Source: Paenibacillus sp. 19GGS1-52
Lineage (GTDB): Bacteria > Bacillota > Bacilli > Paenibacillales > Paenibacillaceae
Direction of reading: 5' to 3'
Assembly (NCBI RefSeq): GCF_022369515.1
Contig: NZ_CP059724.1
Coordinates: forward strand, 682,001 to 746,000
Length of the DNA: 64,000 nt
Below are positions 31,767-59,846 of this stretch, piece after piece; position 1 is the first letter of the stretch; the number at the start of each line of letters is the position of its first letter. The translations under genes and the position numbers were made by a program. A model generated the notes under the pieces. It was not told the origin of the DNA, made no database searches, and worked only from the letters and a program-made list of their open reading frames with translations.

Positions 31767-33266
31767 CTAAAATGTGGTGAAGCCCAAAGTGGTCTGCAAC
31801 CGGAACAACAGGTATTTTAGCCATGTCACATCAGTTTGATAATCTTGAAGCGGCAAGCTGTATTCGGCACCTTCATTATTCCATAGCCGGTTGAAGTAGG
31901 CATTCATCTCGGTATAAAGCGGCTGGTCCTGTTTCACTGCTACCCACAAATCGTTCTCCAGATTGTAATCATCCAGATTCCGTGTCGTAAAATTAGTAGA
32001 GCCGCCAAGGATAATGGAATTGCCGCTTTGTTTAGCAATGAAGAGCAGTTTGGGGTGGAATTGCTCTTTGGTCGTATTGTACCAGCGGATGGCAATCTTT
32101 CCTGCGGATCGTCGGTTCAGGTCCATAGCTACCGGACGGTTGGGAATGCCGATTTTGTCCCGACCAAAGGCATTCTGGTTCGGGTCTAGCAGGAGATTGA
32201 CTTTAGCACCACGGGCAGAGGCATCCAGAAGTGCGTCGATGATGCCGTCATCGGCAAGATAGAACATAGCCATCCATACAGTATCTCCCTTCTGGGCGCC
32301 ACGAATTCCTTGCAGTGCATACTTGTATACTTTTCCCTCTGTCACATAGCGCACCTCCGCCAGCCCTGCTACTTCTCCCTTATCTTCCTGCGTGAATACA
32401 GGTTCTTTGCTCAGCAGAGGACCTGCCCCGGACAAATTGGCGGCTGCCTGCTCCGTTTGTAGAATATCCGCTAGTATAGGACCCTGTACCTCAAGGGCGA
32501 TATTGGAATGATAGGAACTGGCATCATGGACGTTCCCGGAGGAGATCAGTGCTGTCTTCTCGCTGACAATCACTTTGCGGTGATTAGCCTTCACATTTAG
32601 CAGTTTCAGATAGGAACGTGCTGTGATATCAGGCCCTTTACTTGCCATAAGATTCGGAATCCAGCCGGTTCCCGCTTGTCCAAACCACTGAATGAAGGTA
32701 CGCCAAACGGCCGAATAGGCAGGAGTAGAGTCGCGCAGTGGATCAACGTCAGTCATAATGACGTTGATGCCTGCAGCCTTCATTTCCTCAAGTAGAGCAT
32801 TGGGAGCGGAACCGTAATTGGTGTTAACCTCGTCCGTAATGAAGACAATGTCCATCTTTGGATAAGCTAATTTTTGCGCGATAAGCTTAGTAGTTAGCGT
32901 TCTGCTGACTGGCGGAAACTGCTGGTCTTTATGAGTGTAGTCATTGAACAAAAACAGGTCGATCACCAAAAACTCCCTAGAGTCCTCAATAATCTGTAGG
33001 ATCCTCGGTAAAATCTGACTCTCTTGTTTTCCTGTGGGGCTGCCATCCGAATACGTTAGGTCATGCCAGAAGGTCACATGATCCACCTGGTATAGAGGAC
33101 TCTCGTAGGAAATTCCCGGAGGAAGAGGTTTATGTGTCTGATATATCATTACACCCGTTAGCCAGAGAATGAGCATAAGGGTTAATCGTAATATCCAGGT
33201 GCGGCGGCGTGAAGGGCGTTTCTTGTTATGGGATTTGGGCGGAATAGAGAAGTGGCCTAGTTTCAT
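31767..33266 (-). CDS. Phospholipase D-like protein with N-terminal membrane anchor
   Basis: A 499-residue PLD-superfamily protein. A basic N-terminus and one transmembrane helix (about 25-43) are followed by two HKD-like halves: HRKVIVSEKTALISSGNVHD (about 230) and HPKLLFIAKQSGNSIILGGSTNFTTRN (about 400). The second motif departs from the strict HxKxxxxD form, with no Asp at the usual place. It differs clearly from the neighbouring Cls, which has two N-terminal helices, so a phosphodiesterase or transphosphatidylase of unknown substrate is safer than a cardiolipin synthase call. The minus-strand ATG 33266 follows AGGAGGA. Confidence 0.82.
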   Translation of the reverse strand: MKLGHFSIPPKSHNKKRPSRRRTWILRLTLMLILWLTGVMIYQTHKPLPPGISYESPLYQVDHVTFWHDLTYSDGSPTGKQESQILPRILQIIEDSREFLVIDLFLFNDYTHKDQQFPPVSRTLTTKLIAQKLAYPKMDIVFITDEVNTNYGSAPNALLEEMKAAGINVIMTDVDPLRDSTPAYSAVWRTFIQWFGQAGTGWIPNLMASKGPDITARSYLKLLNVKANHRKVIVSEKTALISSGNVHDASSYHSNIALEVQGPILADILQTEQAAANLSGAGPLLSKEPVFTQEDKGEVAGLAEVRYVTEGKVYKYALQGIRGAQKGDTVWMAMFYLADDGIIDALLDASARGAKVNLLLDPNQNAFGRDKIGIPNRPVAMDLNRRSAGKIAIRWYNTTKEQFHPKLLFIAKQSGNSIILGGSTNFTTRNLDDYNLENDLWVAVKQDQPLYTEMNAYFNRLWNNEGAEYSLPLQDYQTDVTWLKYLLFRLQTTLGFTTF

Positions 33267-33398
33267 GGAAGTCCTCCTGTATGTGTAGGAGCATATACCT
33301 CCATCACGATAGGATGTGGTTATGCTCGGGAATTTATCAATTTCTATATAACACCCATAAGGAGAATTGAAGCAGCGAGGACCCCGGACTAACGTCTG

Positions 33399-33461
33399 AT
33401 GACATTATACTTAGGCTTATGTATAATGAGTGTAAATAATTTGTATAAGGTTTGAGACATT
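33399..33461 (+). promoter_or_regulatory. carH promoter with tandem 11-bp CarH-type operator repeats
   Basis: -35 ATGACA (33399-33404), 17-bp spacer, -10 TATAAT (33422-33427). Four contiguous 11-bp units run from 33418: TATGTATAATG, AGTGTAAATAA, TTTGTATAAGG, then a degenerate TTTGAGACATT. The first three share TGT at unit positions 3-5 and A at position 8, the published CarH operator pattern. The first unit covers the -10 box, giving an autoregulation site. Confidence 0.78.
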
Positions 33462-33491
33462 AAAGGTATATAGCGGCAATTGGGAAAGTGA

Positions 33492-34415
33492 GTGAGTTAC
33501 AACGTGTATTCCATCAAACAGGTCGTCGAAATGCTGGAGATTCCATCGGTTACGTTAAGAGCCTGGGAAAGCAGGTATCAGGCGGTGACCCCAGAGCGAA
33601 CCGAGTCCGGATACAGGCTATACAGCCATGATAATGTTGAAGATCTGCGCTGGTTGAAGGAGCAGATTGAGCAACAGGGCATAAGTATTTCGCACGCTGT
33701 TCGATTGTTGAAGGCACAGAAAGAGAAACATCTGGAGGACAATATTGCCGTTAGTGGAACTACACAGGATGCCTTCGAGAAGATGAAAGAGCAAATTTAT
33801 AATGCTCTACTTGAATTCCAAGGGGAGCGGGCCAATGCGCTAATTGATTTTGGTTTCTCCATGTATGGCTACGAAGCGATGTTCCATCAGGTATTGGTGC
33901 CAGTTCTGATCAAGGTCGGGGATGCATGGGAAGTAGGTACGGCGACTGTAGCGCAGGAGCATTATATGACCCATATGATTTCCAATCGATTTTATCAATT
34001 TTTTAATGTCTTTCCCGTTTATGCGCATTTGCCAAAGGTGCTGGCGTTTTGCCCAGCTGGTGAGCATCATCAGGTTGGATTACTATTATTTTCACTCTTT
34101 TTACGGAAGAATGGAGTGGAGGTTATCTATCTCGGTGCCAATACGCCTGAGGAGGGCATCCTGTCGATACTGGAGCAGCAAAAGCGTATTGGTGCCCTAT
34201 GTCTGTCAGTTACAGATAAAGCGCTAATTCCATACTGTGAGGGCCTAATCAAGCATCTAAAGGGTGCTTGTCCAGAAGCAGAGTTCATTGTGGGTGGTAA
34301 GGCTTACGAAGCTTTTCCCAATTCTATCGGGGCGCGTTTCATTATGAATGAGCCGCCGGAGCACTGGCAATCGTGGTTTGACAAAATGTTTATTGGCATG
34401 AAAAGCAAGATTTAA
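33492..34415 (+). CDS. carH: CarH-type B12-dependent photoreceptor and repressor (MerR family)
   Basis: A 307-residue light-sensing transcription factor. The N-terminal MerR helix-turn-helix covers about 1-75 (VYSIKQVVEMLEIPSVTLRAWESRY). A helical B12-cap domain follows, with the diagnostic W-x9-EH motif (W146, E156, H157), then a Rossmann-like cobalamin-binding domain with ExHxxG (E191, H193, G196), where His is the lower cobalt ligand. Adenosylcobalamin-bound CarH tetramers repress in the dark and fall apart in light. The start is GTG 33492 with a weak GGGAAAG site. The gene lies directly before the carotenoid operon, on the same strand but with a terminator between. Both promoters carry the 11-bp repeats. 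Confidence 0.93.
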   Translation: MSYNVYSIKQVVEMLEIPSVTLRAWESRYQAVTPERTESGYRLYSHDNVEDLRWLKEQIEQQGISISHAVRLLKAQKEKHLEDNIAVSGTTQDAFEKMKEQIYNALLEFQGERANALIDFGFSMYGYEAMFHQVLVPVLIKVGDAWEVGTATVAQEHYMTHMISNRFYQFFNVFPVYAHLPKVLAFCPAGEHHQVGLLLFSLFLRKNGVEVIYLGANTPEEGILSILEQQKRIGALCLSVTDKALIPYCEGLIKHLKGACPEAEFIVGGKAYEAFPNSIGARFIMNEPPEHWQSWFDKMFIGMKSKI

Positions 34416-34445
34416 AGGCCATCTGGCGTGGCTGATAATGAAATG

Positions 34446-34492
34446 AAGAGTCTGTAGTGTCACTTATTAGTGATGCTGGAGGCTCTTTTTTT
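34446..34492 (+). terminator. Terminator between carH and the carotenoid operon
   Basis: Outer stem GAGTCT (34448-34453) with AGGCTC, inner stem AGTGTCAC with GTGATGCT including two G-T pairs, followed by seven or more T. Confidence 0.75.
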
Positions 34493-34600
34493 GAATCCAA
34501 ATAAAATTATTAAACAACTAGCAAACATATCCTATTGAAATAGTAAAAACTAGCTATATTGGCCTCAGGCTTTGCTGAATGAGATAGCTATAGTTGGTCA

Positions 34601-34663
34601 TTTACATAAGCACATAATAATTGTATAATGTTTGTAAAGGATTTGTATAATGTTTATAGATTG
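34601..34663 (+). promoter_or_regulatory. Carotenoid operon promoter with four tandem 11-bp CarH-type repeats
   Basis: -35 TTTACA (34601-34606), 17-bp spacer, -10 TATAAT (34624-34629). Four contiguous 11-bp units start at 34620: ATTGTATAATG, TTTGTAAAGGA, TTTGTATAATG, TTTATAGATTG. The first three match nnTGTnnAnn and the fourth has TAT in place of TGT. The first unit begins 4 bp before the -10 box, exactly as at the carH promoter, so bound CarH would block RNA polymerase in the dark. Confidence 0.85.
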
Positions 34664-34685
34664 TGGGATTTGAGGGGGAGTAGGC

Positions 34686-36233
34686 TTGATCAGTACAAAG
34701 AGTGCCGCAAAGGTTGCTGTTGTCGGAGCTGGACCAGGCGGACTTGCCGCTGCTATGCTGCTTGCTGCAGAGGGATATGATGTTGAGGTTTATGAGAAGC
34801 AGGAAGTAGTTGGAGGACGTTCGGGCGAGCTTCGACTGGGGAGTTATACCTTTGACCGCGGGGCTACATTTCTGATGATGCCGCATCTGCTGAGAGAGTT
34901 GTTTACCTCTGCAGGCCGCTCTTTAGATGATTATATTTCCTTGAAAGAGCTTGATCCGCTGTATTCACTACATTTCGGCGATACCGTATTCAAACCTTCT
35001 ACAAATCAGAACCAAACCGCGAACGAGGTGGAGAGGTTGTTTCCAGGTAACGGTGAAGGCTACCGTCGATTCATGGCTGATGAAGGCGATAAGCTGGACA
35101 GAGTACAGCCTTTGTTACAGCGTCCGTTTCAATCTCTTGGTGATTATCTCAAAAAAGATGTTCTGCATGCACTTCCTAAGCTGCATGCTACAGATACTGT
35201 GTACAATCGTCTTTCTAAATATTTTTCGGATGAGCGCCTCCGGTTTGCCTTTGCCTTTCAGGCCAAATATTTGGGGATGTCGCCTTGGGAATGTCCAGGA
35301 ACCTTCACAATTCTTTCCTACATGGAGCATCGTTACGGACTGTATCATCCGATTGGCGGAATCAATCAGGTTTTTCAGGCGATGGCGGATGTGATAAAGG
35401 AGCATGGCGGTAGGGTTCATACCTCCTGCGGGGTAAAGCGTGTGCTGCTTCATAACGGCCAGGCCACGGGGCTGTTGCTCGATAATGGAGACAAGGTAGA
35501 AGCGGACTATGTTGTGATTGGTGCTGATTTCGGTTCAGCCATGACGGAGATGTTTGAGCCTGGAGTATTGAAGAAATATACGCCGAAAAAGGTAGCTAAT
35601 AAACGATATTCATGCTCTACAGCAATGCTGTATCTGGGAGTGGATGGTGCCGTTGATCTGGGCCATCATTCTGTGCATTTCGCAGAGGATTATCGGCGTA
35701 ATGTGGAAGAAATCACGAAATTAGGTACCTTGTCTGCGGACGCTTCGATTTATGTGCATAATCCGTCCGTTCTCGATCCAACACTGGCACCAGCTGGCAA
35801 ATCTTCGCTGTATGTGCTGATGCCAGTTCCTAACCTGACTGCAGACATCGACTGGAAGCAAGAAAGTGCACGGGTAGAGGAAGAAATGCTTGAGCGCTTG
35901 CAGCGTATTCCGGGACTCGCGAATTTATCTGGGCGGATCGAGGAGAAGCTGTTCTTCTCGCCGCTGGATTGGCAAGGCAAGCTGGACGTGTATAACGGCG
36001 CGACGTTTAATCTGGCCCATAATCTGGGCCAGATGATGTATCTGCGGCCTCATAATACCTTTGAGGAGGCGCGGGGGATATGGTTGGTCGGGGGCGGAAC
36101 GCATCCCGGCAGCGGGTTGCCGACGATATTCGAGTCGGCCAAGATCAGTGTGCGGCTGCTGAAGGAGCATGACCGTGCAGCCCGTTCCAGAACGTTCAAG
36201 GCAGGAGTGGCTGGAACGGGGGCTTCGCTGTGA
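34686..36233 (+). CDS. CrtI/CrtN-family carotenoid desaturase or oxidase, first copy
   Basis: A 515-residue flavoenzyme of the phytoene/diapophytoene desaturase family, first gene of the operon. The FAD-binding motif is VAVVGAGPGGLAAAMLLAAEG with VYEKQEVVGGRSG, then YTFDRGATFLMMP. The C-terminal family signature is GIWLVGGGTHPGSGLPTIFES. The start is TTG 34686, after GAGGGGGAG. Its TGA overlaps the GTG of the next gene. Firmicutes usually make C30 carotenoids, so one of the three copies should desaturate diapophytoene and the others oxidise or ketolate the product; which does which cannot be read here. Confidence 0.92.
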   Translation: MISTKSAAKVAVVGAGPGGLAAAMLLAAEGYDVEVYEKQEVVGGRSGELRLGSYTFDRGATFLMMPHLLRELFTSAGRSLDDYISLKELDPLYSLHFGDTVFKPSTNQNQTANEVERLFPGNGEGYRRFMADEGDKLDRVQPLLQRPFQSLGDYLKKDVLHALPKLHATDTVYNRLSKYFSDERLRFAFAFQAKYLGMSPWECPGTFTILSYMEHRYGLYHPIGGINQVFQAMADVIKEHGGRVHTSCGVKRVLLHNGQATGLLLDNGDKVEADYVVIGADFGSAMTEMFEPGVLKKYTPKKVANKRYSCSTAMLYLGVDGAVDLGHHSVHFAEDYRRNVEEITKLGTLSADASIYVHNPSVLDPTLAPAGKSSLYVLMPVPNLTADIDWKQESARVEEEMLERLQRIPGLANLSGRIEEKLFFSPLDWQGKLDVYNGATFNLAHNLGQMMYLRPHNTFEEARGIWLVGGGTHPGSGLPTIFESAKISVRLLKEHDRAARSRTFKAGVAGTGASL

Positions 36234-37741
36234 GCCGGGTCGCCATCGTTGGCGGCGGAATCGGCGGGCTTACGGCAGCGCTGCTGCTTAGCCGCAGCGG
36301 GCAGGAAGTTACGCTGTACGAACGCGCTTCACAGATCGGTGGGCGTGTAGCTTTTGAAGAGCATGGACCTTACCGGATAGACCGTGGACCTACGATTGTG
36401 CTGCTGCCAGATATGCTGCGGAGCATCCTTGAGGAAGGGGGTCTGCCGCCGGAAAGTGTAGAGCTGCTGCGCTGTGATCCACTTTACCGAGTTCACTTCA
36501 AGAGCGGACGGACCTTAACCAAGGTAAATGGAATTCAGGAGCAGGCTGCAGAGATCGAACGCTGTTTTCCCGGTGAAGGTAAGGGATTTATCCGCTTTAT
36601 GCATGACATGTCGATCTTATATCCACTGGGTAAGGCTTCATTTCTTGAGCGGAGTTTTAAGAACCGTAGAGAGTTCTTTAGCTTTGGCAATCTGTCGCTG
36701 ATGGCTCGGCTACAAGCTTACAAGAGTCTGAAAGATGCAGTTGGGCGCTATTTTCATAGTGAAGAGCTGAAGGATGCCTTCTCCCTACAAAGTTTATACA
36801 TCGGCGGGGCTCCTTTCCGCACACCTGGAATCTACACCATGCTTCCTTATGCGGAGCAGGCCTTTGGCATCTGGATGTTGAAGGGGGGGTATGGTGAACT
36901 GCCGCAGATTATGCTCCGAGAGCTGGAGCGCCGTGGAGTTATTATTCATACTCATACTGAGGTTCAATCTCTGCTAGTAGAAGGCGGACAATGCCGAGGT
37001 GTAGTTATAGAGGGAGAAGCCATTCCATATGATGCCGTGTTATATAACGGGGACTTTCCACATTTGGAAGGACTCCTGCCGCAGGGGATTATTAAGAAAG
37101 CCCGTAACTCGCAAAAAGCTAGCCAGCCGGCCAGCAAGTTTCTCCCCTCATCCGGTTGTCTGCTTATCTACGTGGCCGCCACCAAAAGGTGGGAGGAATC
37201 GCTGACACACCAGTTTTTTCTGCCAGATAGTCTGAATGACAGCTTGCGGGAGGTATTTGATCAGCATACCATTCCCGATAAACCCTCCTATTATGTCTTC
37301 AATCCGGCGGCGCTGGATGAAAGTGCTGCTCCGCCAGGAGAAAGTATATTGTACTTTCTTGTTCCTGTTCCTACTTCCCAAGGCATCGACTGGAAAACTG
37401 CCGCTGGCCCGTTAGCCGACAAAGTGCTAGCGGATGCAGAGTCTCGCGGTTTTCCCGGACTTGCTGACAGTATGGTTTGGCGCAAAGTACGTACTCCTAT
37501 GGACGCTGAGCAGGAAGGGATGTTCGGTGGAGGGAGCTTTGGGATTGCCCCAGTGCTGTCCCAGTCGGGGGTATTCCGACCTCAGCCGAAGCCTTATAAA
37601 ATAGACGGATTGTATGCCGCCGGCGCTTCTGTGCACCCCGGGGGTGGGGTGCCGATTGTAATGCAGGGAGCGAGACTGGCCGTACATGAACTGATAAAGG
37701 AGCTGAATATAAATGAAGGAAGACGTATTGCAAAAGTGTGA
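36230..37741 (+). CDS. CrtI/CrtN-family carotenoid desaturase or oxidase, second copy
   Basis: A 503-residue paralogue with the FAD motif VAIVGGGIGGLTAALLLSRSG, then YRIDRGPTIVLLPDML, and the C-terminal block YAAGASVHPGGGVPIVMQ. GTG 36230 overlaps the previous stop (GTGA), showing translational coupling. It overlaps crtM/crtB by 29 nt at its end. The N-terminal DRGPT and C-terminal HPGGGVP forms resemble CrtN/CrtP-type enzymes of C30 pathways. A late-step terminal oxidase role for one of the copies is inference from operons of Planococcus and Halobacillus that have crtNa, crtNb and crtNc. Confidence 0.92.
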   Translation: MSRVAIVGGGIGGLTAALLLSRSGQEVTLYERASQIGGRVAFEEHGPYRIDRGPTIVLLPDMLRSILEEGGLPPESVELLRCDPLYRVHFKSGRTLTKVNGIQEQAAEIERCFPGEGKGFIRFMHDMSILYPLGKASFLERSFKNRREFFSFGNLSLMARLQAYKSLKDAVGRYFHSEELKDAFSLQSLYIGGAPFRTPGIYTMLPYAEQAFGIWMLKGGYGELPQIMLRELERRGVIIHTHTEVQSLLVEGGQCRGVVIEGEAIPYDAVLYNGDFPHLEGLLPQGIIKKARNSQKASQPASKFLPSSGCLLIYVAATKRWEESLTHQFFLPDSLNDSLREVFDQHTIPDKPSYYVFNPAALDESAAPPGESILYFLVPVPTSQGIDWKTAAGPLADKVLADAESRGFPGLADSMVWRKVRTPMDAEQEGMFGGGSFGIAPVLSQSGVFRPQPKPYKIDGLYAAGASVHPGGGVPIVMQGARLAVHELIKELNINEGRRIAKV

Positions 37742-38585
37742 GGAAATGATCAGAATTGGGTCCTCTTCGTTTTACAGGGCCTTTGACGGACTGCCTAGCC
37801 CGCGCCGTGAGGCGGTTCATGTTATTTATGCCTTTTGCCGCATCATTGACGATAGTGTTGATGAGCCGGAGAAGTCGCCCTTCACGATCCATGAGCTACG
37901 CAATCAGTTTCAGGACTTGGAGCAGGCAGATGGACACTTTATCTGGCCTGCGCTGCGCTGGCTGTTCCGCAGCTTCCCGCAGTTGGGGAAGGAACCGTTT
38001 CTATTGCAGATGGAAGGCCAGCTAACAGACCTCTCTTTCACCCATTATGAGACGATGGAGCAGCTCGAATCTTATTGTTATCTCGTAGCGGGTACCGTCG
38101 GAGAAATGCTGCTGCCTGTTCTTAGAGATGACGGCAGTGAAGAAGCGCAAGCCGCAGGTATTGCTCTTGGGATAGGGATGCAGTTTGTGAACATCATTCG
38201 TGATGTGGGCGAGGATCTGGAGCGTGGCCGCCGATATCTTCCACTTGAGGTGCTGAAGAAGCATGAGTATAGCCAGCAGGAGCTGGAAAAGGGCATAGTG
38301 AACAAGCCGTTTAAAGCGGTATTGCATGAGCTTAAAGAAAGTGCGCTATATTGGTTCGAAAAAGGGCTGGAAAATCTCGATACCTATCCACCAGAGAGTG
38401 GCATGGCAGTAGAATTAGCAGCAGCTTTCTATGCAGGTATACTCGATGCCGTGGCCGCGATTGATTATGATGTATTTCGTAGTCGGGCCTATGTCAGCGA
38501 TGAGGCCAAGCTGCAAATGTACCGGCGCACAGCTGCACGTTATGCCGCAGGTTTTAACAGCAAGGGCAAGACGGCGGCATTTTAA
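37713..38585 (+). CDS. Squalene/phytoene synthase family (CrtM/CrtB-like)
   Basis: A 290-residue head-to-head prenyl synthase, the committed step of the pathway: two farnesyl-PP to dehydrosqualene (CrtM), or two GGPP to phytoene (CrtB). The first Asp-rich motif is CRIIDDSVDEP near 48-58, and the second is NIIRDVGEDLERGRRYLP near 160-177. SSFYRAFDGLP at the N-terminus matches the family. ATG 37713 lies inside the preceding gene (29-nt overlap). Length fits CrtM. The C30 or C40 choice cannot be settled from motifs; Firmicute context favours C30. Confidence 0.94.
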   Translation: MKEDVLQKCEEMIRIGSSSFYRAFDGLPSPRREAVHVIYAFCRIIDDSVDEPEKSPFTIHELRNQFQDLEQADGHFIWPALRWLFRSFPQLGKEPFLLQMEGQLTDLSFTHYETMEQLESYCYLVAGTVGEMLLPVLRDDGSEEAQAAGIALGIGMQFVNIIRDVGEDLERGRRYLPLEVLKKHEYSQQELEKGIVNKPFKAVLHELKESALYWFEKGLENLDTYPPESGMAVELAAAFYAGILDAVAAIDYDVFRSRAYVSDEAKLQMYRRTAARYAAGFNSKGKTAAF

Positions 38586-39361
38586 TGATCAGGTATTTAT
38601 TCTGGGCTTGGTATTTTATAGGCGCGCTGCTCTTAATCGTGTTCAGCATACCGGAGAGCCTGCAATTCTCCAATGGCTTATTTCTAATTTTTTATGCAGC
38701 ATATGCTCTGGATTTAACGAACAAGGGAATAGAGCAACCTTTCCTGTCCGACCAGTCAGTCAGCAGTTGGCGAGGTCTTCCAAGCTGGCTGTCCGCTATA
38801 GTGATTTGGTCGGGAGGCATGGGAGTAGAGTGGATTGGTGTTCATTCTGGCAGGTTGTTTGGCAGTTACGAATATTCTAATATTTTGGGACCGTTGTTAT
38901 TTGGCGTCCCTGTCACTTTAGGTTTTGCCTGGATAGCTGTAGTCTGCGGTGCAGTCTTGATCAGTAATGATTTTGGCCTGACTGGTGTCCGTTTGTCTTT
39001 GGTCCGGGCTCTTCAGACAGGCTTTTGGAGCGTTTTATTGGATTTGGTCCTCGATCCTGTGGCACATGCCAAAGGTTTTTGGCATTGGGGCAGCAGTGGG
39101 GGACTGTATGGTGTTCCCTGGAGTAATTTTCTCGGCTGGTTCATCGTCAGTGCAGCTTTGTCGCTGTCCTTGCAGGTCTTTAAGATTTCCCGTCTGAGCG
39201 TGCGTCGGGGTACCCGATTGTATCAGGCAATTCTAATCATGTTCGGGCTTATGGCTGTGCGTGAGGGATTAATGCTCTGTGCTGGGATAGCGGGGCTGGG
39301 AGTTTTACTGGCAGAAGGGAGTTTGTATTATGCTGGAAGCCGTCAGATCAAAAAGCTTTGA
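38585..39361 (+). CDS. Carotenoid biosynthesis membrane protein (DUF422/CruF-like)
   Basis: A 258-residue integral membrane protein with about seven hydrophobic segments, of the PF04240 'carotenoid biosynthesis protein' family. Family signs are GMGVEWIGVHSGRLFGSYEYSN, DLVLDPVAHAKGFWHW, and GVPWSNFLGWF. Characterised relatives (CruF) hydrate carotenoid double bonds at the 1,2 position; the reaction of Firmicute members is not well established. ATG 38585 shares a base with the previous stop TAA, and its end overlaps the acyltransferase gene by 32 nt. Confidence 0.88.
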   Translation: MIRYLFWAWYFIGALLLIVFSIPESLQFSNGLFLIFYAAYALDLTNKGIEQPFLSDQSVSSWRGLPSWLSAIVIWSGGMGVEWIGVHSGRLFGSYEYSNILGPLLFGVPVTLGFAWIAVVCGAVLISNDFGLTGVRLSLVRALQTGFWSVLLDLVLDPVAHAKGFWHWGSSGGLYGVPWSNFLGWFIVSAALSLSLQVFKISRLSVRRGTRLYQAILIMFGLMAVREGLMLCAGIAGLGVLLAEGSLYYAGSRQIKKL

Positions 39362-40067
39362 TAAGTTATTCTACCGTTACAATTATCATTATTTAATTCG
39401 TAGACATTTCCGGTATCTCGGGGTGGCCGGAGAGCTGCAGCCGCCTTCTATAGAGGGTAGACCGGTGCTGTATATTATGAATCACAGCTCATGGTGGGAT
39501 GGACTGCTCGCATACCATGCGGCTAGGACGCTGACGAATCGGGAGCACTATTTCATGATGGAGGAAGAGCAACTGCGCAAGTATGCTTTTTTTCGCAAGT
39601 TGGGAGCGTATTCAATTAATCGGCATAGTACGGGAGACATCAGCACCTCGCTGCGTTATACCACGAGACTACTCCGGGCTGGAGGCGGTGTGTGGATGTA
39701 TCCAGAGGGTGAAATCCAACCCTTAGAGCATCGCCCGATGGTATTGAAGGCGGGTGTTGGCCTTGTGCTGCGATTGTGTCCGGAAGCGGTCGTGGTGCCA
39801 GTAACGTTGTATCATGGCTTATTTCGGCATTCCAAGCCGGAGGCGACATTGTTGGCTGGGGTTCCGCTTGCCCATTCCTGGAAGGACATGAACCGCAACA
39901 GCATCGGGGAGGAGCTGCAGACTGTGCTGGAAGAACAATTGAATAACCACCGCCAAATGATCATCAATAATGGTGGGTTTATACCCGAACAATTCCAACC
40001 TCTGATGAAACAGAGTCGTTCCACCAATGAATGGTTTGATGCTGTGCTTGGCAGGCGAAGACGATGA
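39330..40067 (+). CDS. PlsC-like acyltransferase of the carotenoid operon
   Basis: A 245-residue lysophospholipid-acyltransferase-like protein. The catalytic HX4D motif is NHSSWWDG (about 51-58), and the acceptor-binding block is WMYPEGEIQPLEHRPM (about 125-140). AAGGGAG precedes ATG 39330, inside the end of the DUF422 gene. Its place in the operon, next to a glycosyltransferase, suggests that it acylates a glycosylated carotenoid, as CrtO does for staphyloxanthin, although CrtO is a different family. A plain phospholipid role is the alternative. Confidence 0.88.
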   Translation: MLEAVRSKSFDKLFYRYNYHYLIRRHFRYLGVAGELQPPSIEGRPVLYIMNHSSWWDGLLAYHAARTLTNREHYFMMEEEQLRKYAFFRKLGAYSINRHSTGDISTSLRYTTRLLRAGGGVWMYPEGEIQPLEHRPMVLKAGVGLVLRLCPEAVVVPVTLYHGLFRHSKPEATLLAGVPLAHSWKDMNRNSIGEELQTVLEEQLNNHRQMIINNGGFIPEQFQPLMKQSRSTNEWFDAVLGRRRR

Positions 40068-41221
40068 TTCTACTGCTGCAGATCATCAGCGGCTGTCTGC
40101 TGCTTCAACTGCTGTTCGCGCTATGGAACACTACACGGCTGCCGAAGCTTGGAGTGGTAGAGCGGGTAGTCCATTCAATTTCCGATAGCCCTCTGATTCA
40201 AGAGGGAGTTCCGCGCTTGTCCGTATTGATTCCGGCCCGTGACGAGGTGGATAATATTGCCGCTTGCCTGGCATCTGTGCTGGCCTGCCGAAGCGTGGGT
40301 TGGGACTTTGAGGTGCTCGTGCTGGATGACCGTTCCAGTGATGGAACTGGTGAACTTGCTGCCGCGACTGGAGATCACCGGGTTAAGGTGCTAGCCGGTC
40401 GGGAGCTGCCAGAGGGTTGGTTGGGCAAGTCCAATGCCTGCGATCAGCTAGCGGAAGCAGCGAGAGGGACTTGGTTGCTCTTCTTGGACGCAGATATCAG
40501 ACTCCGTCCGGAGGCGCTGGAAGCGGCTATGCTGACAGCTAATGCTCAAGGAGACGGCTTGGTGACCGGCTTCCCCGGGCAGGTAACGAGGACATGGCTC
40601 GAAAAGCTGATTGTGCCGTTAATGAACTTCACCATCATCTGCCATCTGCCCATTCCACTGGTTCGCGGCGTAAGAGATCCCCGATTTGTAGCCGCGCATG
40701 GAGGATTTATGCTGATTCAGCGGGACAGTTATTCACGTAGTGGAGGCCATGCCTACATTCGTACCGAGCTTGTGGATGATATGGCTTTAGCCCGTGCAGT
40801 AAAGATTTCGGGAGATCCGGTGACACTGGCTAATGTTGTGGATTATACGGAAATGCGCATGTACCATAACGCAACAGAGGTGTGGAATGGCTATCGCAAG
40901 AACATTTACGCCGGTCTGGGTCGCCGTCCTCTTTTGCTGCTAGGTTTACTAATTGTCTATACACTAATGTATGTTCTGCCTATTGTGATACTTACTCTAG
41001 CTTGTCTGACAAATCAGGGAACACTGGCGTTATGGGCGCTTCTTGCAGCTCTGTTAGGTATGGCTATCAAACGGACTAGTGATGCATCTGCTAAACAGGC
41101 GGTTTGGTTATGTCTGCTGGTATCCGTAAGCATGCTCTGCTTGAGTGCTATTGCGATCAGCTCTTGGCGGGGCGCTCAGTCCGGGCAAGGCTATGAATGG
41201 AAAGGGAGATGGTACCGTTGA
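40064..41221 (+). CDS. Family 2 glycosyltransferase of the carotenoid operon (CrtQ-like)
   Basis: A 385-residue membrane-bound GT2 enzyme. An N-terminal helix (1-18) is followed by the GT-A domain: LSVLIPARDEVDNIAACL (about 45-62), the DxD-type LLFLDADIRL (about 140), and a Q/RxxRW-like region replaced by ELVDDMALARAVKISG. Three C-terminal hydrophobic segments follow from about 295. It resembles staphyloxanthin CrtQ-type enzymes that add glucose to a carotenoid carboxyl group. ATG 40064 overlaps the previous stop (ATGA), and its own TGA overlaps the next TTG start. Confidence 0.88.
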   Translation: MILLLQIISGCLLLQLLFALWNTTRLPKLGVVERVVHSISDSPLIQEGVPRLSVLIPARDEVDNIAACLASVLACRSVGWDFEVLVLDDRSSDGTGELAAATGDHRVKVLAGRELPEGWLGKSNACDQLAEAARGTWLLFLDADIRLRPEALEAAMLTANAQGDGLVTGFPGQVTRTWLEKLIVPLMNFTIICHLPIPLVRGVRDPRFVAAHGGFMLIQRDSYSRSGGHAYIRTELVDDMALARAVKISGDPVTLANVVDYTEMRMYHNATEVWNGYRKNIYAGLGRRPLLLLGLLIVYTLMYVLPIVILTLACLTNQGTLALWALLAALLGMAIKRTSDASAKQAVWLCLLVSVSMLCLSAIAISSWRGAQSGQGYEWKGRWYR

Positions 41222-42693
41222 AATCGAAAGCTGTGATTATCGGTGCCGGGTTCGGTGGACTATCCTGTGCGGTAACACTTGCCTCCAAAGGATGGGATGT
41301 AACCGTGTTGGAACGCCAGCACCATCCCGGCGGCAAGCTGCAGCGTATTGAGACTGGAGGGTATACCTTTGACCGTGGACCCAGCACTATTACAATGCCT
41401 CAGGTTTTTCGCTCGCTTTATGAGCTTGCTGGAGTTGCAATGGAGGATTATGTCCAACTTTATGAACTAGAACCGCGTACGCGCAATGTTTTTGCAGATG
41501 GAAGAGTGGTAGATTTGTCTCGCGATGCCAGATATATGAAGGAACAAATTGCTGCATATAGCCCCGCTGATGCTGCACGTTACACGGATTTTATGACTGA
41601 AGCCGCTGTAATGTATCGCCTTAGTGAGAAGCGGTTTCTGAACAAGCTGTTACTCTCCTGGCGGGACAAAATTTCTCCGGCACTTGTGCGTGACCTGCTC
41701 CGTGTTCGGCCTTTTCTTAGCCTGCACGCCCTGCTGTTGCAGTACTTCAGCCACCCGCATACACTCGCAATGTTGGGACGTTATGCTACTTATGTTGGAT
41801 CATCGCCTTACCGTTCTCCTGCTATCTTTGCCATGCTGGGGTATTTGGAGAGTGAAGAGGGCGTATTTGGTGTGAAGGGCGGTACATATAAGCTGGTGGA
41901 GGGTCTTGTGTCCCTGGCTGAAAGATTAGGTGTGAATATCGTAACGGATACGGAAGTAACAGCAATCTCGGTGGTGAATGGTGCGGTAGAAGGGGTGGAG
42001 ACGGTACAAGGTTTCTACACTGCTAAGACGGTGATCGCCGGGGGCGATGTGCTTAGTATTAATCGGATGTTGCTGCCAGAGCGTAGTCGTCCGGCTATGA
42101 GCAATCGCAAAATCGCTGCCTATGAGCCCTCACTCTCAGGCCTGGTTACGCTCGCTGGTGTCCGGCAGAAGTATCCTGCACTGCTGCATCATACGGTATT
42201 TTTCCCGGAGCATTATGAGCCGGAGTTTAAGGATATTTTTGAACAGAAGCGCCCTCCGCTAGACCCCACCGTATATGTGTGTCACTCCGGTTATTCCGAG
42301 CCAAGTATGGCTCCTGAAGGTGGCAGCAATCTGTTCATACTCGCTAACGCGCCGTATGTGAATGAGGCCTGCGACTGGCGGGAAGAGACATCCACCTATG
42401 GAGCGCGAGTCTTATCAACACTAGCAGGACATGGTATTTCCGGTGTGGATCAAGGAGATGTTCTGCTGCATTACACGCCACAGGATATCGCCGATGATAC
42501 GCTCTCGCATAAGGGAGCCATCTATGGGATTTCTTCGAACTCCATTCGCCAGACCTTCTCTAGACCAGGCAACCGCTCCAGTGATGTGAAAGGTCTTTGG
42601 TATGTAGGTGGCACCACACATCCCGGTGGCGGAACACCGATCGTATCATTGTCCGGACGGCTTGTAGGCGAACATATTGCCAATAAATCGTAG
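41218..42693 (+). CDS. CrtI/CrtN-family carotenoid desaturase or oxidase, third copy
   Basis: A 491-residue flavoenzyme, last gene of the operon. The FAD motif is AVIIGAGFGGLSCAVTLASKG, then YTFDRGPSTITMPQVF, and the C-terminal signature is GLWYVGGTTHPGGGTPIV. TTG 41218 is preferred because AAAGGGAG lies 9 nt upstream and TTGA couples it to the preceding stop; in-frame ATGs at 41197 and 41209 lie within or next to that ribosome binding site. This copy looks closest to classical phytoene/diapophytoene desaturases by its N-terminal block, which is an impression and not a tree. Confidence 0.92.
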   Translation: MKSKAVIIGAGFGGLSCAVTLASKGWDVTVLERQHHPGGKLQRIETGGYTFDRGPSTITMPQVFRSLYELAGVAMEDYVQLYELEPRTRNVFADGRVVDLSRDARYMKEQIAAYSPADAARYTDFMTEAAVMYRLSEKRFLNKLLLSWRDKISPALVRDLLRVRPFLSLHALLLQYFSHPHTLAMLGRYATYVGSSPYRSPAIFAMLGYLESEEGVFGVKGGTYKLVEGLVSLAERLGVNIVTDTEVTAISVVNGAVEGVETVQGFYTAKTVIAGGDVLSINRMLLPERSRPAMSNRKIAAYEPSLSGLVTLAGVRQKYPALLHHTVFFPEHYEPEFKDIFEQKRPPLDPTVYVCHSGYSEPSMAPEGGSNLFILANAPYVNEACDWREETSTYGARVLSTLAGHGISGVDQGDVLLHYTPQDIADDTLSHKGAIYGISSNSIRQTFSRPGNRSSDVKGLWYVGGTTHPGGGTPIVSLSGRLVGEHIANKS

Positions 42694-44504: not shown

Positions 44505-44537
44505 GGCCTCTGGGATGAGGTCTTTTTTATTTTTTTG
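44505..44537 (+). terminator. Terminator of the fni-GNAT unit
   Basis: GGCCTC (44505-44510) pairs with GAGGTC (44517-44522), followed by long T-runs. The palindromic repeat carrying the IS starts immediately after the T-run. Confidence 0.68.
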
Positions 44538-44559
44538 AAATATAAGACACCCATGCCGC

Positions 44560-44760
44560 TGCGCGGCATCACTGAGGAATGAAAATATTGTCTATACTGG
44601 TTACTGGGCTGGCGAAGGTAGGTCGGAAATTCTTGGTGTCACGAACCCGCATATAAGACGGACCCCAACGACCCGGTGCATCACAGATTGTTGCTCCCTA
44701 CGGGGAAGCACGCAGGGCAGAATAACCTTAGCATTGGTCTTTGCACCAGCCTTAATTACC
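44560..44760 (+). ncRNA. Candidate bridge RNA of IS110 copy 1
   Basis: IS110 elements encode a bridge RNA in the noncoding left end that pairs with target and donor DNA. Here GCATATAA (44649-44656) is the reverse complement of the target right half TTATATGC, and GGAAAT (44625-44630) resembles the left half GAAATAT. CAGGGCAGAA (44713-44722) is identical to the right end of the IS plus core, and GGTCTT (44736-44741) is complementary to core plus the first IS bases (AAGACA). The limits given are approximate, and folding was judged by eye only. Confidence 0.6.
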
Positions 44761-44784
44761 GCCAGCAGGCAGGAGACGCAAACC

Positions 44785-46005
44785 GTGGAAATACTCATTG
44801 AACGTTGCTGTGGATTGGATGTGCACAAGAAGAGTATCACAGCATGTATCATCACCTCGAAAGGAAAGGAGATTCGGAGTTTTGAAACATTGACTCGTCG
44901 GCTGATTGATCTGGTAGATTGGATCAAAAGCGAACGGTGCACCCATGTCGCGATGGAGAGTACCGGAGATTACTGGAAACCCATTTATAATCTGCTAGAA
45001 ATGGAAGACCTTGAGCCACTGGTCGTAAACGCCCAGCATATCAAAGCCGTGCCAGGACGCAAAACGGACGTGAAAGATGCAGAATGGATAGCGAAATTAC
45101 TCCGGCATGGGTTGGTGCAAGGCAGCTACATTCCGAATCGGGATCAACGAGAACTTCGGGAAATTATCCGTTATCGCCGAAGTATCATTGAAGAACGCAC
45201 GCGTGAAGTGAACCGGCTGCAAAAGGTACTAGAAGGCGGCAATATCAAACTTTCGTCGGTAGCGTCTAATGTGCTAGGCGTGTCTGGACGAAACATGCTG
45301 GAAGCGATGATTCAAGGAGAAAGTGATCCGTCCATCCTGGCTGACTTTGCGCAAAAGAAGTTAAAGGCCAAGAAAGAGCAATTGAAACTTGCACTGGAGG
45401 GAAGCCTAGGTCCCCATCAATTATTAATGCTGGAAAAACAGTTGTCGCATATCGACCAATTGAATGAGTTAATCACGGAACTGGATGAAGAGATCGAGCG
45501 CCGAATGAGCCCTTTTGCTGAGGATCTGAAGTTGTTGGATACCATCCCCGGTGTCGGTAAGCGAACCGCTGAGCAAATTCTGGCGGAAATTGGGACAGAC
45601 ATGACACGGTTTCCAAGTGCAGGACATTTATGTTCCTGGGCAGGGATGACTCCAGGTCACGATGAAAGTGCGGGGAAGAAGAGATCCGCCAAAACCCGAA
45701 AAGGGAACAAAAAACTACGAAGTGCACTCGTAGAATCAGCGCGAGCCGCAGGACGAAAAAAGAACACCTACCTGTCGGCGCAATATCACCGAATCGCAGG
45801 CAGGCGAGGGAAAAACAGAGCGGCCGTGGCCGTTGGACACAGCATTTTAGCGATTGTATACATCTTGTTAACGCGAAGACAAGAATATAAGGAACTAGGA
45901 TTTGACTACTTCGACCAACGAAACCACGATATGGTAATGAACCGTTCTATTAAACGTTTGGAATCCTTGGGATACCAAGTGAATCTGAGTGAGCAAACGG
46001 CCTGA
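44785..46005 (+). CDS. IS110-family transposase (RuvC-like DEDD recombinase), copy 1
   Basis: A 406-residue recombinase. The N-terminal DEDD domain shows CGLDVHKKSITACI (Asp12), THVAMESTGDYWKPIYNLL (Glu), and GRKTDVKDAEWIAKLLRHGL (Asp pair). A coiled-coil-rich middle is followed by the C-terminal Tnp_20 domain with DTIPGVGKRTAEQILAEIG, SAGHLCSWAGMTPG (Ser and Gly conserved in the family) and KKLRSALVESA. GTG 44785 follows AGGAGA by 8 nt; an upstream in-frame TTG-type start would run into the predicted bridge RNA. This copy keeps the family Gly in SWAG and looks intact. Confidence 0.95.
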   Translation: MEILIERCCGLDVHKKSITACIITSKGKEIRSFETLTRRLIDLVDWIKSERCTHVAMESTGDYWKPIYNLLEMEDLEPLVVNAQHIKAVPGRKTDVKDAEWIAKLLRHGLVQGSYIPNRDQRELREIIRYRRSIIEERTREVNRLQKVLEGGNIKLSSVASNVLGVSGRNMLEAMIQGESDPSILADFAQKKLKAKKEQLKLALEGSLGPHQLLMLEKQLSHIDQLNELITELDEEIERRMSPFAEDLKLLDTIPGVGKRTAEQILAEIGTDMTRFPSAGHLCSWAGMTPGHDESAGKKRSAKTRKGNKKLRSALVESARAAGRKKNTYLSAQYHRIAGRRGKNRAAVAVGHSILAIVYILLTRRQEYKELGFDYFDQRNHDMVMNRSIKRLESLGYQVNLSEQTA

Positions 46006-56194: not shown

Positions 56195-56276
56195 ATATCG
56201 GTTCCGGTGTAACTGGCGACAAGTGTGGATCAAACCACGATGGAGCATCGGAATAAACGGCCGGTCGCCTGGGCAA
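56195..56276 (+). ncRNA. ZTP (pfl) riboswitch
   Basis: The conserved parts of the pfl motif are present: ACTGGCGA (56212-56219), a TGTGG/CCAC hairpin (56223-56238), GGAGC, then the 3' domain with CGCCTGGGCA (56266-56275). GGCGAC (56215-56220) can pair with GTCGCC (56264-56269). ZTP riboswitches sense ZMP/ZTP, which builds up when 10-formyl-THF is short, and turn on one-carbon and purine genes. The terminator directly downstream indicates transcriptional control of ywlG-glyA. Confidence 0.9.
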
Positions 56277-56316
56277 AAGAGCAAATCCGCAGCTACCTGC
56301 GGACTGCTCTTTTTTG
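56277..56316 (+). terminator. Riboswitch-controlled intrinsic terminator
   Basis: AAGAGCA and TCCGCAG arms pair with CTGCGGA and TGCTCTT, followed by six T. It is the expression platform of the ZTP riboswitch ahead of ywlG. Confidence 0.88.
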
Positions 56317-58330: not shown

Positions 58331-58400
58331 TATTAGCTGCAGTGTCGTATGTGTGTATAATCGAGCTTATCTTTTTGCAAATATAAGACACCCATGCCGC

Positions 58401-58601
58401 TGCGCGGCATCACTGAGGAATGAAAATATTGTCTATACTGGTTACTGGGCTGGCGAAGGTAGGTCGGAAATTCTTGGTGTCACGAACCCGCATATAAGAC
58501 GGACCCCAACGACCCGGTGCATCACAGATTGTTGCTCCCTACGGGGAAGCACGCAGGGCAGAATAACCTTAGCATTGGTCTTTGCACCAGCCTTAATTAC
58601 C
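58401..58601 (+). ncRNA. Candidate bridge RNA of IS110 copy 2
   Basis: The left end reads the same as copy 1. The target-like GCATATAA is at 58490-58497, and the donor-like CAGGGCAGAA is at 58554-58563. Limits are approximate. Confidence 0.58.
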
Positions 58602-58625
58602 GCCAGCAGGCAGGAGACGCAAACC

Positions 58626-59846
58626 GTGGAAATACTCATTGAACGTTGCTGTGGATTGGATGTGCACAAGAAGAGTATCACAGCATGTATCATCACCTCG
58701 AAAGGAAAGGAGATTCGGAGTTTTGAAACATTGACTCGTCGGCTGATTGATCTGGTAGATTGGATCAAAAGCGAACGGTGCACCCATGTCGCGATGGAGA
58801 GTACCGGAGATTACTGGAAACCCATTTATAATCTGCTAGAAATGGAAGACCTTGAGCCACTGGTCGTAAACGCCCAGCATATCAAAGCCGTGCCAGGACG
58901 CAAAACGGACGTGAAAGATGCAGAATGGATAGCGAAATTACTCCGGCATGGGTTGGTGCAAGGCAGCTACATTCCGAATCGGGATCAACGAGAACTTCGG
59001 GAAATTATCCGTTATCGCCGAAGTATCATTGAAGAACGCACGCGTGAAGTGAACCGGCTGCAAAAGGTACTAGAAGGCGGCAATATCAAACTTTCGTCGG
59101 TAGCGTCTAATGTGCTAGGCGTGTCTGGACGAAACATGCTGGAAGCGATGATTCAAGGAGAAAGTGATCCGTCCATCCTGGCTGACTTTGCGCAAAAGAA
59201 GTTAAAGGCCAAGAAAGAGCAATTGAAACTTGCACTGGAGGGAAGCCTAGGTCCCCATCAATTATTAATGCTGGAAAAACAGTTGTCGCATATCGACCAA
59301 TTGAATGAGTTAATCACGGAACTGGATGAAGAGATCGAGCGCCGAATGAGCCCTTTTGCTGAGGATCTGAAGTTATTGGATACCATCCCCGGTGTCGGTA
59401 AGCGAACCGCTGAGCAAATTCTGGCGGAAATTGGGACAGACATGACACGGTTTCCAAGTGCAGGACATTTATGTTCCTGGGCAGAGATGACTCCAGGTCA
59501 CGATGAAAGTGCGGGGAAGAAGAGATCCGCCAAAACCCGAAAAGGGAACAAAAAACTACGAAGTGCACTCGTAGAATCAGCGCGAGCCGCAGGACGAAAA
59601 AAGAACACCTACCTGTCGGCGCAATATCACCGAATTACAGGCAGGCGAGGGAAAAACAGAGCGGCCGTGGCCGTTGGACACAGCATTTTAGCGATTGTAT
59701 ACATCTTGTTAACGCGAAGACAAGAATATAAGGAACTAGGATTTGACTACTTCGACCAACGAAACCACGATATGGTAATGAACCGTTCTATTAAACGTTT
59801 GGAATCCTTGGGATACCAAGTGAATCTGAGTGAGCAAACGGCCTGA
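58626..59846 (+). CDS. IS110-family transposase, copy 2
   Basis: A 406-residue recombinase, same domains as copy 1. It differs at two residues: SWAEMTPG instead of SWAGMTPG (Gly to Glu at the conserved Tnp_20 motif) and HRITGRR instead of HRIAGRR. Two further base changes contribute a silent site and part of the second substitution. The Gly in SWAG is strongly conserved in IS110 recombinases, so this copy may be impaired. GTG 58626 follows AGGAGA; the frame is open further upstream to 58353, but that part crosses the IS boundary and the predicted bridge RNA. Confidence 0.93.
   Translation: MEILIERCCGLDVHKKSITACIITSKGKEIRSFETLTRRLIDLVDWIKSERCTHVAMESTGDYWKPIYNLLEMEDLEPLVVNAQHIKAVPGRKTDVKDAEWIAKLLRHGLVQGSYIPNRDQRELREIIRYRRSIIEERTREVNRLQKVLEGGNIKLSSVASNVLGVSGRNMLEAMIQGESDPSILADFAQKKLKAKKEQLKLALEGSLGPHQLLMLEKQLSHIDQLNELITELDEEIERRMSPFAEDLKLLDTIPGVGKRTAEQILAEIGTDMTRFPSAGHLCSWAEMTPGHDESAGKKRSAKTRKGNKKLRSALVESARAAGRKKNTYLSAQYHRITGRRGKNRAAVAVGHSILAIVYILLTRRQEYKELGFDYFDQRNHDMVMNRSIKRLESLGYQVNLSEQTA

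Follow-up and report, generated by a model that had tools for sequence, protein, structure and literature searches.

Tandem 11-bp arrays at the carH and carotenoid promoters of a Paenibacillus genome as candidate operators of a putatively light- and B12-dependent CarH regulator

Two promoters overlapped by 11-bp arrays

In the genome of Paenibacillus sp. 19GGS1-52 the gene of a B12-binding regulator, carH, is followed by a cluster of carotenoid (crt) genes, and the promoters of both are overlapped by contiguous 11-bp units. The question raised by this locus is whether these arrays are the operators of the CarH protein which is encoded between them. We consider this likely, with a probability of roughly 0.88: both arrays would serve the AdoCbl-dependent repression of carH and the crt genes in the dark and their release in the light. 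The window, i.e. the whole stretch of 64,000 nucleotides that was analysed, harbours the following features:

33399..33404, + strand: -35 element ATGACA of the carH promoter, PcarH (read directly)
33418..33461, + strand: candidate operator of CarH over PcarH (TGTnnA in the first three of its 11-bp units, unit 4 degenerate)
33422..33427, + strand: PcarH -10 element TATAAT, within unit 1 (read directly and found by promoter scan)
33492..34415, + strand: carH, MerR-type B12-binding regulator of 307 aa, alternatively 303 aa with the GTG at position 33504 as start codon (Pfam, structure match, signature residues)
34601..34606, + strand: -35 element TTTACA of the crt promoter, Pcrt (read directly and found by promoter scan)
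34620..34663, + strand: candidate operator of CarH over Pcrt (TGTnnA in the first three of its 11-bp units, unit 4 degenerate)
34624..34629, + strand: Pcrt -10 element TATAAT, within unit 1 (read directly)
34686..36233, + strand: crtI-family carotenoid desaturase/oxidase, first crt gene (TIGR02734 above cut-off)
36230..37741, + strand: second crtI-family gene (TIGR02734 above cut-off)
37713..38585, + strand: squalene/phytoene-synthase family gene, crtM/crtB-like (PF00494)
38585..39361, + strand: CruF-like carotenoid biosynthesis protein (PF04240)
39330..40067, + strand: acyltransferase (PF01553)
40064..41221, + strand: glycosyltransferase family 2 (PF00535)
41197..42693, + strand: third crtI-family gene (TIGR02734 above cut-off)

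From position 33418 onwards the units of PcarH read TATGTATAATG / AGTGTAAATAA / TTTGTATAAGG / TTTGAGACATT, those of Pcrt, from position 34620, ATTGTATAATG / TTTGTAAAGGA / TTTGTATAATG / TTTATAGATTG. Direct reading bears out what a sequence-only reading of this DNA had described, namely contiguous 11-bp units over a TATAAT at both promoters, a first unit starting exactly 4 bp ahead of the -10 element, and a 17-bp spacer (ATGACA-17-TATAAT at PcarH, TTTACA-17-TATAAT at Pcrt). A recount likewise returned the same figures: six of the eight units carry TGT at positions 3-5 together with A at position 8, and seven start T-rich. At PcarH and Pcrt alike, units 1 to 3 match TGTnnA while unit 4 fails this core, so that each promoter presents the anatomy by which we define a CarH operator, at least three tandem 11-bp TGTnnA units and an overlap with the -35 or -10 element, here the -10. 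The repeat had been given as nnTGTnnAnnT; its TGTnnA core holds, but the outer T (position 11) is found in none of the six matching units. In the available parts of the literature the CarH repeat is published as nnnnTnnACAn or nAnnTnnACAn (PMC9304148, PMC8156234). Read on the complementary strand the core TnnACA becomes TGTnnA, so that the window shows it, in a 3+1 arrangement, on the other strand from that of the published notation; none of the six matching units has the outer base which nAnnTnnACAn calls for.

Within positions 33250-34750 PcarH and Pcrt are the top two of eight promoter-like matches (11/12 each), to be seen against an average of 3.3 such matches after shuffling of this segment. 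The in-phase TGTnnA triple occurs twice in the window compared to an expectation of 0.01, and not one of 100 shuffles reached two, which upholds the earlier argument that the shared phase is not due to chance. Resampling each array from its own dinucleotides yields three units at that phase with p = 4.5e-5 and 7.5e-5, respectively. The entire 6.83-Mb genome contains six such triples: PcarH, Pcrt, one isolated site and three overlapping ones which belong to a single TGTGGA array. The latter (G000:C1:6627434-6627483; L089, L084:1434-1485) comprises five units at 11-bp steps and was rejected as a CarH site; downstream of it follow a cobalamin riboswitch and reading frames which, judged by eye, resemble ribonucleotide reductases. 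Its units resemble DnaA boxes and are, as we presume, perhaps just that.

Two further observations concern other parts of the window. A ZMP/ZTP riboswitch (58.8 bits) is located at 56199-56281, and a 300-nt direct repeat at 44531-44830 and 58372-58671 is 99% identical over a distance of 13,841 bp; other pattern matches share this offset, which suggests a longer duplication.

The encoded CarH protein and its light-sensing residues

The carH product contains, all above cut-offs, the domains MerR_1 (PF13411), B12-binding_2 (PF02607) and B12-binding (PF02310), which is the domain order of class I CarH/LitR proteins. In a sequence search its closest solved relatives are the chains of Thermus thermophilus CarH (E 4.5e-29). 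The Wx9EH motif is present (WEVGTATVAQEH), and the recognition helix, which reads RAWESRY, is one residue away from RxWERRY. The B12 motif of class I CarH/LitR proteins is D/ExHx2G/P x41 SxT/V x22-27 GG; the window protein shows it, including the axial His, as EHHQVG, 42 residues, SVT, 26 residues and GG, so that the strict x41 form is unmatched by a single residue. The best family match is the NCBIfam CarH equivalog NF052513, whose score of 148 bits falls under the cut-off of 400; other CarH proteins from Paenibacillales reach 123-143 bits, and this cut-off is narrower than the family, for which reason we did not take it as defining.

GxxW, EH, GxxH and GxxxP are described, in the part of the source at hand, as the signature of light-responsive cobalamin domains (PMC11796333), and the alignment reveals all four in the window CarH. 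This alignment comprises 65 rows from the order, the 45 loci of the genus, the window's own included, and 20 from outside the genus. Counting our own protein, Trp, Glu-His and GxxxP are present in 65 of the 65 rows, the axial His in 64 and the Gly of GxxH in 63. At L153:2117-4047 a tandem pair of carH-like genes is situated behind folE; in the aligned CarH row of this locus Gln replaces the axial His and Lys occupies the position which corresponds to Thermus His132.

A difference from Thermus CarH concerns this very position, which is occupied by Glu in the window CarH (residue 147, region of window position 33930). Glu is also found in 61 of the 64 other Paenibacillales rows, and His in none. 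According to the excerpt of PMC10442372, Thermus His132 serves as upper ligand in the light state and matters for the release of the tetramer. One might hence suppose that the arrays are bound by a CarA-like, B12-independent repressor and that light does not act through AdoCbl, the more so as the Thermus H132A variant is described there as mostly staying tetrameric in the light. The same paper, though, refers to previous work in which H132A was reported to disassemble. Moreover, CarA lacks the Trp of Wx9EH in the account available to us (PMC9304148), whereas the window protein possesses Trp, Glu, His and the axial His. The His beside Trp is described in the partial sources as present in 'many' CarH proteins, not in all, and the residue at this position is therefore not defining for class I. 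Other light-responsive cobalamin proteins carry Arg, Gln or Tyr there (PMC11796333, in part), which makes Glu compatible with light sensing. A CarA-like repressor thus appears very improbable to us, and we retain the reading of a light-sensing CarH whose release step may differ in detail from that of Thermus, given the Glu in place of His132. As the genome encodes, besides its single carH, one PduO-type cobalamin adenosyltransferase and four cobalamin riboswitches, AdoCbl is plausibly available.

Conservation of the arrays and further candidate targets

Among 100 genomes of the genus, 45, our own included, encode carH (E 1e-30). At least three strict in-phase units, oriented along transcription, are present upstream of carH in 36 of these 45 loci, again including our own. 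Seven loci (L038-L044) show three in-phase TGT units one of which is weak, in the carH array of L019 one unit starts with CGT, and L045 has two strict forward units and three on the opposite strand. The sequence-only reading had proposed to align other Paenibacillus carH-crt loci, and this alignment retains the 11-bp phase. With our own locus counted, [AG]TGACA-17-TATAAT together with a unit 1 that begins 4 bp ahead of the -10 element is found at PcarH in 34 of the 36 closest loci, and TTTAC[AT]-17-TAT[AG]AT with the same start of unit 1 at Pcrt in 35 of 36; the compared genomes being related, these counts express conservation and not independent replication. As the -10 element of Pcrt, 33 of these 35 aligned loci have TATGAT. 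Most of the 35 possess four TGT units at Pcrt, whereas in the window, its sister, L003 and L008 one of the four is degenerate, which leaves the crt array of the window one good unit shorter. Outside the genus an array accompanies carH in 14 of 20 loci and is absent from six at the score used, compared to 2 of 20 for the reversed-pattern control.

Across the 36 closest loci the conservation of units 1 to 6 amounts to 1.79, 1.59, 1.97, 1.33, 0.77 and 0.50 bits per base at PcarH and to 1.73, 1.34, 1.50, 1.52, 0.73 and 0.26 bits per base at Pcrt, the drop occurring after unit 4 at both promoters. The conservation of unit 1 is partly that of the promoter, as this unit is overlapped by the -10 element. 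It may even be asked whether the units are no protein site but a repeated -10-like sequence reflecting alternative starts or promoter slippage. AT-rich repeats of such kind arise easily, and in addition to the -10 element in unit 1 a TATAAG or TATAAT is present in unit 3. Yet it is in unit 3 that conservation at PcarH peaks, the conserved G of TGT and the flanking bases are needless for a -10 element, and in the promoter scan the second -10 elements lack a -35 element at 16-18 bp. As the 11-bp phase is, moreover, shared by two promoters and maintained between genomes, we judge an origin as mere -10-like repeats to be highly unlikely.

A loose search for triples with a TGTATA core and up to two mismatches, in which overlapping matches of one array are counted repeatedly, gave 204 matches in the 45 genomes with carH and 43 in the 55 without it (reversed-pattern control: 38 and 49). 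Per genome this corresponds to 4.53 and 0.78 (control: 0.84 and 0.89), a contrast which is partly built in because carH-less genomes by definition lack the carH promoter. This contrast bears on the notion that a regulator other than CarH uses the arrays. At least one loose match is indeed present in 26 of the 55 carH-less genomes, and in G066, a genome devoid of this carH, a strict in-phase TGTnnA triple adjoins the gene of a small membrane protein; set against the difference in frequency between genomes with and without carH, we nonetheless regard another regulator as extremely unlikely and adhere to CarH. The cleanest sign of arrays following carotenoid genes is provided by genome G092, in which the crt cluster is divided between two contigs: the carH-crtI1-crtI2-crtB part bears the usual arrays, and the cruF-AT-GT-crtI3 part (L091) has a four-unit array of its own.

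In the window's own genome the three-unit pattern with at most one mismatch matches only PcarH, Pcrt and a third array at G000:C1:6103485-6103539 (L082:7486-7540), which reads ATTGTATAACA / TTCGTATAGTA / ATTGTATAGCA / TTTGTATAATC / ATTTTCTATAA. If up to three mismatches are allowed, 16 matches are obtained compared to nine for the control, so that the weaker ones mean little. The third array, which fails the strict triple as one unit reads CGTATA, is flanked by the gene of a FAD oxidoreductase with that of the small membrane protein behind it and, divergently, by a GGDEF-EAL gene. By eye, a GTGACA-16-TATCAT is directed towards the latter in our genome; it is not kept in the sister genome G037. 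The sister does keep the array, with four perfect TGTATA units, which is modest evidence since conservation is high throughout this intergenic region. The FAD oxidoreductase itself is encoded in only these two of the 100 genomes (E 1e-40). We conclude that a third CarH target in this genome is probable. The earlier proposal of a two-promoter regulon consequently stands with respect to the arrays at PcarH and Pcrt but is probably too small.

The small-membrane-protein family also adjoins a photolyase gene and an array in G034 (L094), and photolyase, array and carH in G101, which belongs to another family (L143). Its gene occurs in 19 genomes, seven with and 12 without carH. Arrays lie beside it in three of the seven (G000, G037 and G034), the other four showing no convincing one, and a TGTATA-type array beside it was found in none of the 12 carH-less genomes. 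As a marker of the regulon this gene is suggestive only. In L045 (2980-3014), L152 (2058-2090) and L156 an array lies between carH and a divergently oriented PAS-MCP gene, and in G005 a four-unit array (L101:3491-3534) precedes a PAS-MCP gene unlinked to carH. Among 30 inspected PAS-MCP loci out of 56 genomes matched, arrays are found only in G005 and G061, both of which have carH, and the next best score (23.5) belongs to G010, which lacks it. In L150 and L153 folE with an array precedes carH. Of 18 further loose-match loci chosen (L091-L108), three are situated at plausible light genes, namely L091 at cruF-AT-GT-crtI3, L094 at photolyase and L101 at PAS-MCP. The other 15 present no convincing target; in L096 and L097 the loose match follows a helicase gene in both genomes, and the sequences of L107 and L108 recur in carH-less genomes.

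We tentatively put forward, as a possibility with the odds rather against it, that CarH operates a genome-wide light switch in Paenibacillales, with a light-state chemistry that differs owing to the Glu in place of the His, which would include the unlinked FAD oxidoreductase/membrane protein and GGDEF-EAL genes here and photolyase, GTP cyclohydrolase and a PAS chemotaxis transducer in relatives. If true, a single B12 repressor would carry light information to DNA repair and to motile or sessile behaviour.

The proposed switch and its relation to known systems

By analogy with characterised homologues, AdoCbl-loaded CarH would assemble in the dark, presumably to the tetramer known from these, and bind each 44-bp operator through its four 11-bp units. 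The bound protein would cover the -10 element and the start site and thereby block RNA polymerase, which at carH would amount to negative autoregulation and at the crt cluster would turn pigment formation off. Light (UV to green) would break the Co-C bond, whereupon the oligomer would let go and both promoters would open. The domain order, the light-sensing residues, the repeat core and a unit count as in Bacillus megaterium support the earlier assignment to CarH-type regulators, and the light-responsive pigmentation described, in the available part of PMC6739363, for a B. megaterium isolate and for an isolate closest to Paenibacillus alvei fits the proposed switch. Counting against the operator reading are the 148 bits towards NF052513, the degenerate unit 4, the outer T in 0 of 6 units, the Glu replacing the bis-His residue and the 6 of 20 loci from outside the genus that show no array at the score used.

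We regard the locus as an ordinary, well-conserved case of the known CarH switch, one with a probable third target and with a substitution at the His132 position. In titles and abstract openings of the literature we found no operator study in Paenibacillus, for which a clear and conserved candidate CarH operator set of two, perhaps three, promoters is now at hand. If the proposal is true, carotenoid making in these soil bacteria is gated by light and B12, and the conserved Glu poses the question of how a CarH that lacks the bis-His switch comes off its DNA. Operators of 44 bp with an embedded -10 element would, furthermore, suit green-light gene control in Gram-positive hosts.

Known systems, as described in excerpts of the cited papers, share some features with the window and differ in others. 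The regulon of the class II LitR PplR of Pseudomonas comprises phrB, a FAD-dependent oxidoreductase gene and folE (PMC9758184), gene kinds which adjoin arrays here as well, the FAD oxidoreductases being likened by gene kind; class II LitR proteins, in contrast, are described as acting with LOV proteins and without B12 binding. The operators of myxobacterial CarH/CarA (PMC9304148) resemble ours in mixing good and degenerate 11-bp repeats, but consist of five units at the -35 element with TTGACA inside one repeat, whereas in the window TGTnnA runs along transcription. Thermus thermophilus CarH (3whp, 5c8d) shares with the window protein the domain order, Trp, Glu-His, the axial His and GxxxP, and its sites share the 11-bp direct repeats with the core TnnACA. 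Its operator, however, has three repeats including the -35 element (PMC9304148), compared to four over the -10 element here, and its light-state upper ligand His132 is matched by Glu. The CarH/LitR of B. megaterium QM B1551 is, likewise, the MerR-B12 repressor of crt genes in a Gram-positive spore former (PMC9304148, PMC8156234, PMC9758184). Its operators, which overlap the -35 or the -10 element, are described as having either four repeats or three with an added pseudorepeat (PMC9304148, PMC8156234), while both arrays of the window overlap the -10 element and run downstream.
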